Position numbers and translations under genes: made by a program
Notes under the pieces: generated by a model
Told to the model about the DNA's origin: nothing
The model's database searches: none
The model's input: only the letters and a program-made list of their open reading frames with translations
Virus record (IMG/VR): IMGVR_UViG_3300032245_000053
Coordinates: 1 to 33,917 of that record
DNA: 33,917 nt
Direction: 5' to 3' (one strand)
DNA from: a virus
Shown here: one piece after another, positions 8,799-12,485 of the stretch
Layout: each line of letters starts with the position of its first letter
Numbering within the stretch: the first letter of the stretch is position 1

Positions 8799-9025
8799 CA
8801 ATACTTGGATAACTTACTAAACATGACTCTACCTTGTTGATTTTTATAAGCAAAAGTAGAAAATGCTTCAGGTGACTCATTGTGCAGCTCAAACAAAACT
8901 TCATCAATTCTTTTAGATGTAGCTTCAACAAGCTCATCTGACATTTTATCTCGCAAATCGCCATATACACCGCTTGACGCTGCTTTTAAACGCTTTTGTT
9001 GCTCTATTGTTAGTTTGATATTCAT
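8798..9025 (-). CDS. Small hypothetical protein
   Basis: 75 residues from ATG 9025 (MNIKLTIEQQKRLKAASSG). In-frame upstream ATGs exist at 9037 and 9061, but 9025 makes an ATGA overlap with the preceding gene and has GGGAAAA upstream. It is helical and charged, with a C-terminal segment NQQGRVMFSKLSKY. No domain is recognised. It is the second gene of the leftward cluster. Confidence 0.68.
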   Translation of the reverse strand: MNIKLTIEQQKRLKAASSGVYGDLRDKMSDELVEATSKRIDEVLFELHNESPEAFSTFAYKNQQGRVMFSKLSKY

Positions 9026-9228
9026 ACATTTTCCCATACTTGTTTTTGAAATTTTTCCCAACCCAAAGCGTGAATCATCTCTAATACGCTAATGTCTGTG
9101 TCTGCGATACGCACATCTTCAATTTCTATGTCGCCTGTGTAGCCAATGTCATCTTCTGGCTCAATCATATAAAAATCTACATCAAGCAATGTGTCGCCAA
9201 CATATACTGAAGTCATTTGTAAGTCCAT
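9022..9228 (-). CDS. First gene of leftward cluster, small acidic beta-rich protein
   Basis: 68 residues, MDLQMTSVYVGDTLLDVDFY at the start, followed by an acidic stretch (EPEDDIGYTGDIEIEDVRI) and a short helix with WEKFQKQVWENV. The strand pattern with GDIEIEDV is common among small unnamed phage proteins. Its ribosome site is AGGGGAAA, 7 bases before ATG. The leader holds a hairpin shared with the other leftward operon and, further up, the 27-bp repeated palindrome box, which probably supplies the promoter. Confidence 0.74.
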   Translation of the reverse strand: MDLQMTSVYVGDTLLDVDFYMIEPEDDIGYTGDIEIEDVRIADTDISVLEMIHALGWEKFQKQVWENV

Positions 9229-9246
9229 TTTGTTTCCCCTTGTTAA

Positions 9247-9319: not shown

Positions 9320-9389
9320 GAAAAATAGTTTATTAAAATTTCATGCACTTATACCAATGTATAACGCTGTATACCATAAGAAAAAGTTT

Positions 9390-9407
9390 CCCGAGCGGGC
9401 AATTTTG
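9390..9407. repeat. Hairpin repeat A (CCC-GAGC-GGG + CAATTTTG)
   Basis: A GC hairpin CCC/GGG with loop GAGC, followed by CAATTTTG. The block GGGCAATTTTG (9397-9407) recurs exactly 49 bases on, at 9446-9456, again directly after a GC hairpin. The surrounding DNA is AT-rich, so the pair stands out. Confidence 0.55.
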
Positions 9408-9437
9408 ATTAAAAAGTAAGCAAATATAAGGAAATAT

Positions 9438-9456
9438 GCCCGATTGGGCAATTTTG
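9438..9456. repeat. Hairpin repeat B (GCCC-GATT-GGGC + AATTTTG)
   Basis: A perfect 4-bp hairpin GCCC-GATT-GGGC followed by AATTTTG; the second member of the pair with 9390-9407. The loop differs while the stem and the 3' block are kept, suggesting a protein site or RNA element rather than chance. Confidence 0.55.
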
Positions 9457-9659
9457 TAAGATTTAGTAAATAACTCTTTAATAAGCCCTTAGCGTACTTA
9501 AACACTCTTTAATAAATCATTAAGTTTATAGTTGGTAACTTTTAAGTTACTAGTCAAACTAAAATGTGTCTAGTATTTGTATTTTTTTATACATATAGGT
9601 ATCAATGTATATACAAAATATATACCTATAGGTAACAGGGTTGTATTTGGCAGTTAACA

Positions 9660-9714
9660 CCAATGGGCGAGAAAGCCGCAAAATTACCCAATTACTGCAT
9701 CCTACATTGGCGGC
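9660..9714 (+). ncRNA. Possible pseudoknot-forming element
   Basis: CCAATG (9660-9665) can pair with CATTGG (9705-9710), and GCCG (9675-9678) can pair with CGGC (9711-9714). The two helices interleave as in an H-type pseudoknot, and their 3' strands are adjacent, allowing stacking. An alternative is the local hairpin GGC-GAGAAA-GCC (9666-9677). It lies just before the three-way junction at 9735. Structure is inferred from sequence only. Confidence 0.28.
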
Positions 9715-9734
9715 TTGACACCCTTAAATGAGGT

Positions 9735-9792
9735 GGGGGCTGGTATGCACGGACATACATGGTAGAAGAAAGGGGAAATCTCCTCAGCCCCC
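9735..9792 (+). ncRNA. Candidate structured RNA: compact three-way junction
   Basis: P1 is an 8-bp GC-rich helix, GGGGGCTG (9735-9742) with CAGCCCCC (9785-9792). Inside it, P2 is GTATG-CACGGA-CATAC (9743-9758) and P3 is AGGGG-AAAT-CTCCT (9771-9784), with a 12-base purine-rich joiner between them. There are no unpaired bases between P1 and P2 or between P3 and P1. One P3 pair is G-U on the plus strand but A-C on the minus strand, which favours a rightward RNA. It matches no riboswitch, ribozyme or tRNA that I know. It also lies 5 bases past the end of the nuclease gene on the other strand, so a 3' structure of that mRNA is the main alternative. Confidence 0.4.
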
Positions 9793-9797
9793 GTTGT

Positions 9798-10544
9798 TTA
9801 GTTTAAACCAGTTTTTAATTTATATACGCTCAACAAATGTAGAAACATCTCGTAAGCGTTTCTGACATCTTGCTCACTATGCTCACAGATTGCTACTTCA
9901 CCTGTAGTGCCATTAATATATACATTGGCGCAGCGTGCGGTGGGGGCTAGGACTTCTCTGTATGCTGCGAGCTGCATAATGTGTTCATCGTACGGCTTAA
10001 TGTCACCAGGCGTCTTTTCAGTCGTTTTAAAGTCAATGACTACACCACTAAAATCATGCTTTGATTTGCAATATAAATCGCACTTGCCACCATAGCCCTC
10101 TTGATTGACTAGACTCTGCTCTGCAATCCATAACTGGGCGCCAAAATGCGCTGTAATTGCGTCATCTATTGTACGCACATAGCTAGGCATATCAGGCAAA
10201 TACTCTTGACTGTAAAAAGACTCTAAAAAGTCATGTATAAGACTTCCTCTGTCTGCTGCTTCTCTTGATTTAGCTTTTGCTAAATATAAAATTCTATCAA
10301 CATATTCTTTTTCAGACTCTTGTAATCCTCTAGGATTGTCTGCTGCTGCAAGTAGTGCCTGGCTCTGCTTCCATGTATCAAGACCTGGCTTTGATAATTG
10401 GCCAATAATTGTTGTAACGCTTGGGACAAGTGTACCGGGTGCTGCTTTTGCGTCCCTGAGTGTTGTGCTTCTTTCTTTGCCGTTTTTACCAATGGTTGTA
10501 TAGCGTGACTGCCCGGTTTGGGCGCAATACCAATGCTCTGACAT
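9798..10544 (-). CDS. RecB/Cas4-like PD-(D/E)XK exonuclease
   Basis: 248 residues from ATG 10544, which has AAGGGGAAA upstream; a start at 10583 lacks one. RecB-type nuclease motifs appear in order: GSLIHDFLE with His104, GGKCDLY with Asp156, VVIDFKT with Asp171 and Lys173, and QLAAY (Gln191, Tyr195). These bind metal and cut DNA. Together with the ERF annealing protein and the SSB-like protein of the same operon it should resect DNA ends for single-strand annealing, in the role of lambda Exo. It is the last gene of the leftward recombination operon. Confidence 0.85.
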   Translation of the reverse strand: MSEHWYCAQTGQSRYTTIGKNGKERSTTLRDAKAAPGTLVPSVTTIIGQLSKPGLDTWKQSQALLAAADNPRGLQESEKEYVDRILYLAKAKSREAADRGSLIHDFLESFYSQEYLPDMPSYVRTIDDAITAHFGAQLWIAEQSLVNQEGYGGKCDLYCKSKHDFSGVVIDFKTTEKTPGDIKPYDEHIMQLAAYREVLAPTARCANVYINGTTGEVAICEHSEQDVRNAYEMFLHLLSVYKLKTGLN

Positions 10545-10573
10545 AAATTTCCCCTTATTTGCATAATGTGTAA

Positions 10574-11044: not shown

Positions 11045-11494
11045 TTAAATTTCGATTGATTTAACTACTGGTTTGTTTGATACCTTGCCTGTTGGATTGC
11101 TGGCAGCGTTGCCATCATCGTCTGCTTGCACTACACCTACTACTGCTGCTAATGCGTACCTACGCATATAGGTTAACGCAGAGCCTGCGCCTTGTGCGTC
11201 TGCTTTAGTAACTGGTACTGACATCTCTTGACTCATCCATTCGCCAGACTTGTGGCTAATAATTGTAGTCAATGACATAGACTTGTCTAATTCTGAATAC
11301 AGGCCAGGAAATTGCATAATTGCTATGCCATGCGCTGAAAGCAAGTCACGACAGGCGCCCCATACTGACTCTAAGTCAGCGTATTTAGATTTAAAGAATG
11401 GATTAGCAGAATCTTTAATTGCATGGGACATTTTGCCCTGCACATAAGACAAAGCTACTGTTAAATTAGCAATACTTTCTGATTGATTAATCAT
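11045..11494 (-). CDS. erf: ERF-family single-strand annealing recombinase
   Basis: 149 residues. It has the ERF family layout: an N-terminal helix (ESIANLTVALSYVQGKM), then FFKSKYADLESVWGACRDLL, a beta core, and the signature GAGSALTYMRRYAL near residues 101-114. ERF proteins of P22 and relatives anneal complementary single strands and can circularise terminally redundant genomes. This protein is short and lacks the longer C-terminal region of P22 Erf. Its start overlaps the upstream stop (ATGA), with GGGGG at about 7 bases. Confidence 0.9.
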   Translation of the reverse strand: MINQSESIANLTVALSYVQGKMSHAIKDSANPFFKSKYADLESVWGACRDLLSAHGIAIMQFPGLYSELDKSMSLTTIISHKSGEWMSQEMSVPVTKADAQGAGSALTYMRRYALAAVVGVVQADDDGNAASNPTGKVSNKPVVKSIEI

Positions 11495-11697
11495 TTTGCA
11501 CCCCCAAAGATTGCGCCAAAGTCATTAAAAACTTCTGTCAATACTGGATTCTTTTTCCAGCGATTAGGTTTGCCACACGCTTGACGAATACAGTCAACTT
11601 GCTCTTGTGTAAGCAGCTCGCCACCATATTCCATACAGTCAAGTGCTTCTTCTAAAAATTCTTCATGTTCAAGCATTAATTGGTTTAATTCACCCAT
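11491..11697 (-). CDS. First gene of recombination operon, small hypothetical
   Basis: 68 residues. An acidic helical N-terminal half (LMLEHEEFLEEALDCMEYGG) is followed by LTQEQVDCIRQACGKPNRW and a short tail. Three Cys are present but in no known metal motif. Function unknown. AAGGGGA precedes the ATG, and a leader hairpin at 11717-11732 lies about 20 bases upstream. Its stop overlaps the ERF start. Confidence 0.74.
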   Translation of the reverse strand: MGELNQLMLEHEEFLEEALDCMEYGGELLTQEQVDCIRQACGKPNRWKKNPVLTEVFNDFGAIFGGAK

Positions 11698-11808
11698 CTA
11701 AATTCCCCTTAGATACATAGCGAAATTGCTATAGGTTAAATGTTAACACAGGTAAATTAAAAAAGTTAAAGTTATGCAAATAAACAACATATAAGTTAAA
11801 CTCTGTGA
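11698..11808. promoter_or_regulatory. Divergent early control region
   Basis: 111 bp between the leftward recombination operon and the rightward Cro-like gene. It contains four GTTAAA/GTTAAC elements (11735-11740, 11742-11747, 11765-11770, 11795-11800), candidates for repressor half-sites. TATAAG (11790-11795) would be a -10 for the rightward gene with a poor -35 (TTAAAG, 11766-11771). This is the phage's likely early switch, comparable in layout to immunity regions, but the operator assignment is inference. Confidence 0.5.
11717..11732 (-). promoter_or_regulatory. Leader hairpin upstream of recombination operon
   Basis: On the minus strand ATAGC-AATTTC-GCTAT forms a 5-bp stem with the same AATTTC loop as the hairpin at 9247-9262. 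The two outer stem pairs differ between copies but remain paired. It lies about 20 bases before the ATG at 11697, directly ahead of the AAGGGGA ribosome site. Confidence 0.6.
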
Positions 11809-12120: not shown

Positions 12121-12173
12121 AACTTAAAAAGTAGGCGAAACTGACAGGACTGTTTAACTTAAAGGGGAATTAT

Positions 12174-12485
12174 ATGAAAGATTTTTTAGGAGCTTGTTTA
12201 TTGGGCGCGGTTTTAGGTGCTATGTTTGCTTATGGCATACCAGCTAAAGCGCAGACTATTCAACTGACTGACAGTCGTGGCTACAGCCAAGGCACAGTCC
12301 AAATCAACGGCAATACAGCGCAATTTGTAAATCCACAGGGCTATACAACGCAGACTGCTACGCTATATCCTAATCAGGTTGTTATTACAACACCACAAGG
12401 GTACGCAACTAGCGTAGTAGGCAACACAGGCTATACTGTGCCACCAAGCCCGCCAACACCAATGTCGCCTAAAGTTATGCAATGA
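12174..12485 (+). CDS. Secreted/periplasmic protein with signal peptide
   Basis: 103 residues. MKDFLGACLLGAVLGAMFAY is a hydrophobic signal sequence, followed by GIPAKAQ with a good signal-peptidase I site (AKA before Gln, near residue 26). The mature part is beta-rich, with imperfect repeats of the type x-Gly-Tyr-x2-x-Thr (RGYSQGT, QGYTTQT, QGYATSV), and ends in a Pro-rich tail. Family not recognised. AAGGGGAA lies 6 bases before ATG. An early, exported phage protein could alter the envelope, for example superinfection exclusion. That is inference from position and export only. Confidence 0.78.
   Translation: MKDFLGACLLGAVLGAMFAYGIPAKAQTIQLTDSRGYSQGTVQINGNTAQFVNPQGYTTQTATLYPNQVVITTPQGYATSVVGNTGYTVPPSPPTPMSPKVMQ

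Follow-up and report, generated by a model that had tools for sequence, protein, structure and literature searches.

A conserved three-way-junction RNA in the 3′ UTR of a phage exonuclease gene, with a loop complementary to the Shine-Dalgarno sequence of the same gene

To our knowledge, very few cases are known in which the 3′ UTR of a bacterial-type mRNA pairs with its own Shine-Dalgarno sequence (SD), and comparative evidence for such pairing is rare. Among phage RNAs, c4, located upstream of its target, controls an antirepressor; Rfam includes a C4 family. Staphylococcus aureus possesses small RNAs with C-rich loops, for example RNAIII and the Rsa RNAs. In the icaR mRNA of S. aureus, the 3′ UTR motif UCCCCUG pairs in cis or in trans with the SD UAGGGGG, blocks the initiation complex and makes a substrate for RNase III (PMC3868564). 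The UCCCC motif is present in several S. aureus sRNAs (PMC3868564). The c4 antisense RNA of phages P1 and P7 is folded, and its loops, complementary to the ribosome-binding site of a phage gene, block translation (PMC12197685).

The stretch of DNA analysed here (the window), 33,917 bases long, is a virus record. Among the products of its leftward early operon are an ERF recombinase, a single-strand DNA-binding protein and a PD-(D/E)XK exonuclease (exo). Five nucleotides past the exo stop codon (9798-9800), on the same (minus) strand, starts a compact RNA element, E1. It occupies the gene-free region where a sequence-only reading of the window had, rightly, placed a structured RNA candidate. 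The features needed for its description are the following.

Positions 9798-10544, minus strand: exo, a PD-(D/E)XK nuclease and phage exonuclease (PF12705; phrog_298 exonuclease, 9.6e-19).
Positions 9735-9792, minus strand: E1, a 58-nt three-way-junction RNA in the 3′ UTR of exo (folding, alignments of relatives, covariance models).
Positions 9785-9792, minus strand: 5′ arm of the closing stem P1, GGGGGCUG (100% of cells paired; two pairs with compensatory changes).
Positions 9735-9742, minus strand: 3′ arm of P1, CAGCCCCC (same alignment as the 5′ arm).
Positions 9764-9784, minus strand: hairpin P2, AGGAGA/UCUUCU with a 9-nt loop (97% of cells paired; both-side changes at three pairs; one alignment position shows as many as five kinds of pair).
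Positions 9770-9778, minus strand: P2 loop UUUCCCCUU, a putative anti-SD (complementarity to the exo SD; loop-SD covariation).
Positions 9743-9758, minus strand: hairpin P3, GUAUGU/GCAUAC with loop CCGU (100% of cells paired; both-side changes at three pairs).
Positions 10548-10556, minus strand: exo SD AAGGGGAAA, the proposed main target of the P2 loop (complementarity to the loop, comparison of loop and SD across loci).

E1 and icaR both have a C-rich 3′ UTR motif complementary to the SD of the same mRNA, and the icaR SD, UAGGGGG, is that of exo in clade II described below. However, icaR is a regulator of biofilm formation encoded on the chromosome and has a long 3′ UTR, whereas E1 is a compact three-way junction of a phage, directly past the stop codon. 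Covariation of loop and SD across clades is a property of E1; function has been shown for icaR, and we infer it for E1. We expect the likeness to be one of mechanism only, with no homology. With c4, E1 shares its phage origin, its folding and the complementarity of a loop to the ribosome-binding site of a phage gene. Unlike c4, with its upstream position and its control of an antirepressor, E1 is found downstream of exo, and the C4 family of Rfam 15 gives no match there. UCCCC hairpin loops that bind G-rich SDs, putatively so in E1, would be the feature shared with the C-rich-loop RNAs of S. aureus; those are separate bacterial small RNAs, whereas E1 is linked to one phage gene. The kind of regulation is already known; what appears to be new is the E1 family and the way its loops covary with SDs from one phage clade to another, and a literature search returned no report of E1. 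As the sequence-only reading had also stated, the element corresponds to no known RNA family: no Rfam 15 covariance model reaches its threshold at E1, relaxed searches give only weak matches far below family thresholds, and ARAGORN finds neither tRNA nor tmRNA at this position.

A search for relatives of exo yielded 80 viral contigs, and a similar element lies directly past the exo stop codon in nearly all of them. The elements fall into two types, B (that of the window, GGGGGC...GCCCCC) and A (GAGGYGG...CCRCCUC). In 13 distinct close relatives of type B, window included, 99.2% of cells are paired and 8 of the 20 pairs show compensatory changes; in 30 relatives of type A, the values are 97.0% and 9 of 20. 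None of 500 shuffles matched the real alignments of either type in paired cells or covariation score, and in slid controls the paired cells fall to 35-61% (46-61% for the type-B alignment). A covariance model built from type A alone detects the type-B element of the window on the minus strand (25.6 bits, E 0.019), which makes a relationship between the two types probable; with the type-B model, a single copy is detected in the window. Both alignments and the models lend strong comparative backing to the compact three-way junction that the sequence-only reading had proposed.

The two types also differ in their P3 loops, UCCGUG in the window type and CACGGA in type A. Each is the reverse complement of the other, which would fit an inversion of the hairpin at the DNA level. 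In exo clades that have no E1 (L090, L143), a UUCACGG hairpin stands alone. Binding of CsrA/RsmA by the P3 loop, considered for the A-C-GGA of one type, was dropped, as the window type carries UCCGUG and other clades ACGGG or ACACGAG.

Each strand of 9735-9792 folds as a three-way junction: the minus strand at -26.4 kcal/mol (z -4.3, with none of 200 shuffles as good) and the plus strand at -28.0 kcal/mol (z -2.8). From a single G-U pair, the sequence-only reading had favoured a rightward transcript, with AGGGG/CUCCU (containing that G-U) as its second hairpin. One pair of this hairpin is broken in 10 of the 13 distinct relatives, window included, whereas the same site on the minus strand forms AGGAGA/UCUUCU around the loop UUUCCCCUU, a hairpin that compensatory changes maintain in 97% of cells. 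All 22 wobble cells of the 13 type-B sequences are G-U on the minus strand, with no A-C; the 30 type-A sequences have 31 G-U cells on that strand versus 7 A-C cells, which would be G-U on the plus strand. The broken plus-strand hairpin and the direction of the wobbles therefore identify E1 as a minus-strand RNA, and they refute a plus-strand RNA as the conserved form. One of the three helices had been misdrawn because the strand was read wrongly. The 8-bp closing stem holds as drawn, exact at 9735-9742 and 9785-9792; the pattern has a single occurrence in the window and none in 100 shuffles. Stems broken without compensation in relatives, named in that reading as evidence against it, are found for the rightward version, while the leftward version keeps its pairs. 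E1 is a real, strongly conserved minus-strand RNA of the exo 3′ UTR.

Two E1 sequence patterns, both blind to exo, were scanned across the 2.9 million viral contigs of IMG/VR and gave 83 and 37 matches, or 120 E1 copies. In 119 of them exo ends 22-36 nt ahead of the loop motif, and the remaining copy is cut by a contig end. The exo SD contains GGGG in all 115 copies with the exo start in view. Three loci, L066, L073 and L095, have an extra gene inserted at the very end of exo; the inserted genes look HNH-like by eye, and E1 is retained intact past them. No promoter of E1's own was found nearby, so the element must ride on the operon transcript. Nor is there an intrinsic terminator or a U tract at E1, which is followed by ACCUCAUUUAA. 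The carriers of E1 are a family of freshwater phages. A collection of annotated phages yielded no nucleotide relatives, and the exo relatives found there are below 50% identity. The Rfam Betaproteobacteria-1 RNA (RF02932) occurs elsewhere in L014, L016, L017, L018, L019, L033, L047 and L056, and is absent from the window; its presence in these related phages hints at betaproteobacterial hosts.

In the window, the P2 loop UUUCCCCUU is the exact complement of the exo SD AAGGGGAAA, and folding of the exo leader revealed no strong structure that would hide the SD. Presence of loop and SD was counted over 141 non-redundant exo loci: 89 have both a C-rich loop and an exo SD containing GGGG, 45 have neither, and 7 are apparent exceptions. 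Five of these resolve into three insertions that keep E1, one contig end and one misassigned start (L102, where the true exo SD is inside the longer reading frame). The two real exceptions, L120 and L141, have a GGGG exo SD without the loop.

For two side branches, clades II and III, additional exo relatives were fetched. Clade II has the loop UUACCCCCUAG (CCCCCUA) and the exo SD UAUAGGGGG (UAGGGGG); clade III has the loop AUUCCCCCGAU and the exo SD UUCGGGGGAA, with UUCCCCCGA in the loop matching UCGGGGGAA in the SD, and AUUCCCCCGA/UCGGGGGAAU complementary over 9-10 nt. The longest complementary run averages, for own-clade pairs, 9.0 in clade I (UUUCCCCUU/AAGGGGAAA), 7.0 in clade II, where pairing ends at 7 nt, and 9.7 in clade III; foreign-clade combinations of loop and SD mostly give 5-6 complementary nucleotides, with a highest value of 7. 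Nearly all loci have a 3′ UTR motif complementary to the SD of the same mRNA over 7-12 nt. Within clade I, the base beside the C run (UUUCCCC or UAUCCCC) is independent of the SD except in L019/L150. On the exo tree, the three loop/SD clades are separate from each other and from a loop-less clade, with only 2-3 changes of presence; so few independent events leave an independent-pairs sign test without power. The evidence draws its weight from the fact that, clade by clade, flanks and C-run length specifically match.

The SDs of other genes of these phages conform to classes I and II. AAGGGGA in SD position of non-exo genes reaches 3.98 per 10 kb in clade I, compared with 0.32 in clade II, 0.41 in clade III and 0.09 in the loop-less clade, which prefers AAGGAGA as its SD. 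Non-exo UAGGGGG in SD position reaches 2.85 per 10 kb in clade II, against 0.12, 0 and 0 in the others. The window contains AAGGGGAA five times, with 0.63 copies expected in all: once as the complement of the E1 loop and four times as an SD, on both transcripts, for exo and for genes 9022-9228, 11491-11697 and 12174-12485. The last three are possible further targets.

Positions 9234-9241, minus strand: SD AAGGGGAA of the next leftward gene (9022-9228).
Positions 11703-11710, minus strand: SD AAGGGGAA of gene 11491-11697.
Positions 12162-12169, plus strand: SD AAGGGGAA of the early rightward gene 12174-12485.

For clade III, the count yields matches for exo and a single additional gene only, which makes the set of further targets less certain there.

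We consider it likely that E1, sitting in the exo 3′ UTR, serves as a structured anti-SD riboregulator by which translation of exo is blocked, and probably that of other early genes too. P1 and P3 would act as a scaffold that holds the P2 loop out in single-stranded form. The loop would pair over about 7-10 nt with the exo SD, on the same or on another transcript, and probably also with that SD where other early genes of the phage carry it. Such pairing would keep ribosomes off, and the resulting duplex may become exposed to RNase III. As early transcripts build up, the outcome would be negative feedback on exo and the early operon. Several observations speak against this explanation: the three loop/SD classes are deep clades with few changes of presence, the base beside the C run in clade I is mostly independent of the SD, clade II pairs end at 7 nt, and L120 and L141 have the SD without the loop. 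It is possible, though we hold it only tentatively, that a private SD/anti-SD code is involved, in which a lineage-specific early-gene SD (AAGGGGAAA, UAGGGGG or UCGGGGGAA) is matched by an RNA loop at the end of exo tuned to that SD variant; early genes would be shut off together and host mRNAs with other SDs would be spared.

How far the action would extend in trans is a matter within the anti-SD explanation itself. E1 could work mainly as a processed small RNA, an operon- or phage-wide translational switch for which autoregulation of exo is incidental. The SD usage of other early genes also fits the loop class, and every non-E1 copy of AAGGGGAA in the window is an SD, on one transcript or the other; but the tie of 119 of 120 copies to exo, the near confinement of the matching SD to exo in clade III and the lack of a separate promoter make this version rather doubtful. 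We find it unlikely that E1 is a 3′-end protection or RNA-processing element of the exo mRNA, such as a barrier to 3′-5′ exonucleases, whose C-rich loop serves structure or protein binding. A GC-rich, compact fold directly past the stop codon, followed by further structured modules such as E4 (see below), is what this explanation would lead one to find, and exo clades without the C-rich loop still have structured hairpins at the same site. It would not, however, lead one to expect that the loop fits the SD of the gene in each clade, both in its flanks and in the length of its C run, or that the loop is absent where exo has no G-rich SD.

That E1 is a feature of the DNA and not of RNA (a cruciform, a protein site or a structure of replication or recombination) is very improbable. 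The element is partly palindromic and the P3 loops of its two types look inverted in DNA, but the excess of G-U over A-C cells in both alignments designates a minus-strand RNA, the element keeps a constant position with respect to the exo stop codon, and a match between loop and SD is a relation at the RNA level. Less probable still is a rightward structured RNA at 9735-9792: the plus strand folds well when taken alone, but its second hairpin is the one broken in most close relatives and the wobbles fit the other strand. The anti-SD riboregulator is the reading we retain.

A second, separate element, E4, is situated in the same 3′ UTR, directly past E1.

Positions 9638-9723, minus strand: E4, an 86-nt pseudoknotted RNA (pattern search, covariation, no Rfam match).

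The pattern search found E4 in at least 120 viral contigs. The 97 distinct sequences share a length of exactly 86 nt, with no insertions or deletions. The nested helices pair positions 1-4/83-86, 18-21/79-82, 26-30/70-74 and 34-38/56-60, and a crossing helix pairs 9-14/45-50. Covariation is strong: in an unbiased scan, the five strongest covarying column pairs all belong to these nested and crossing helices. For the crossing helix itself, pairing is conserved almost without exception, and just two cells are compensated. The invariant length and the crossing of helices point to a tight RNA fold, possibly of the ribozyme, aptamer or exonuclease-resistant type. E4 is mostly found past exo, and past other genes in a few contigs (L108, L168, L185, L186). 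Six pattern matches to bacterial genomes in a genome-collection scan were rejected as chance, being without the E4 flanks.

More generally, modules are shuffled in the exo 3′ UTR, with varied small structured elements inserted between E1 and E4 (E3-like in L008 and L038; also L019, L025 and L047), including a tRNA gene in L047. A hairpin, E2, lies just past E1 or exo in L016, L017, L024, L033, L152, L178 and others; its internal loop GAAA/AGUA resembles loop E (sarcin-ricin), and its closing stem varies in a compensatory manner (GGGC/GCCC, GACC/GGUC, GAGG/CCUC, GGGG/CCCC). Modules of the E1 and E2 types have -ACC ends. Upstream of the next gene, L018, L038, L042 and L058 have a leader with long paired arms, AGCAGGUC...GACCUGACCUGCU, whose inner helix changes in step (GGCCC/GGGG versus GGCUC/GGAG). 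In the rest of the gene-free stretch in the window, at 9383-9456 and 9590-9634, there are an imperfect palindrome, TACATATAGGTAT/ATACCTATAGGTA, and two similar GC hairpins (CCCGAGCGGG and CCCGATTGGG) followed by CAATTTTG.

E1 is not the only conserved RNA in the 3′ UTR of exo: at least one other, E4, is present there, and no Rfam family covers it. Since loop and SD have changed together in three clades, the proposed mechanism can be put to a direct test by exchanging matching for non-matching loops and SDs. Should other early genes also obey the code, these phages would control a set of their own messages at the level of translation.
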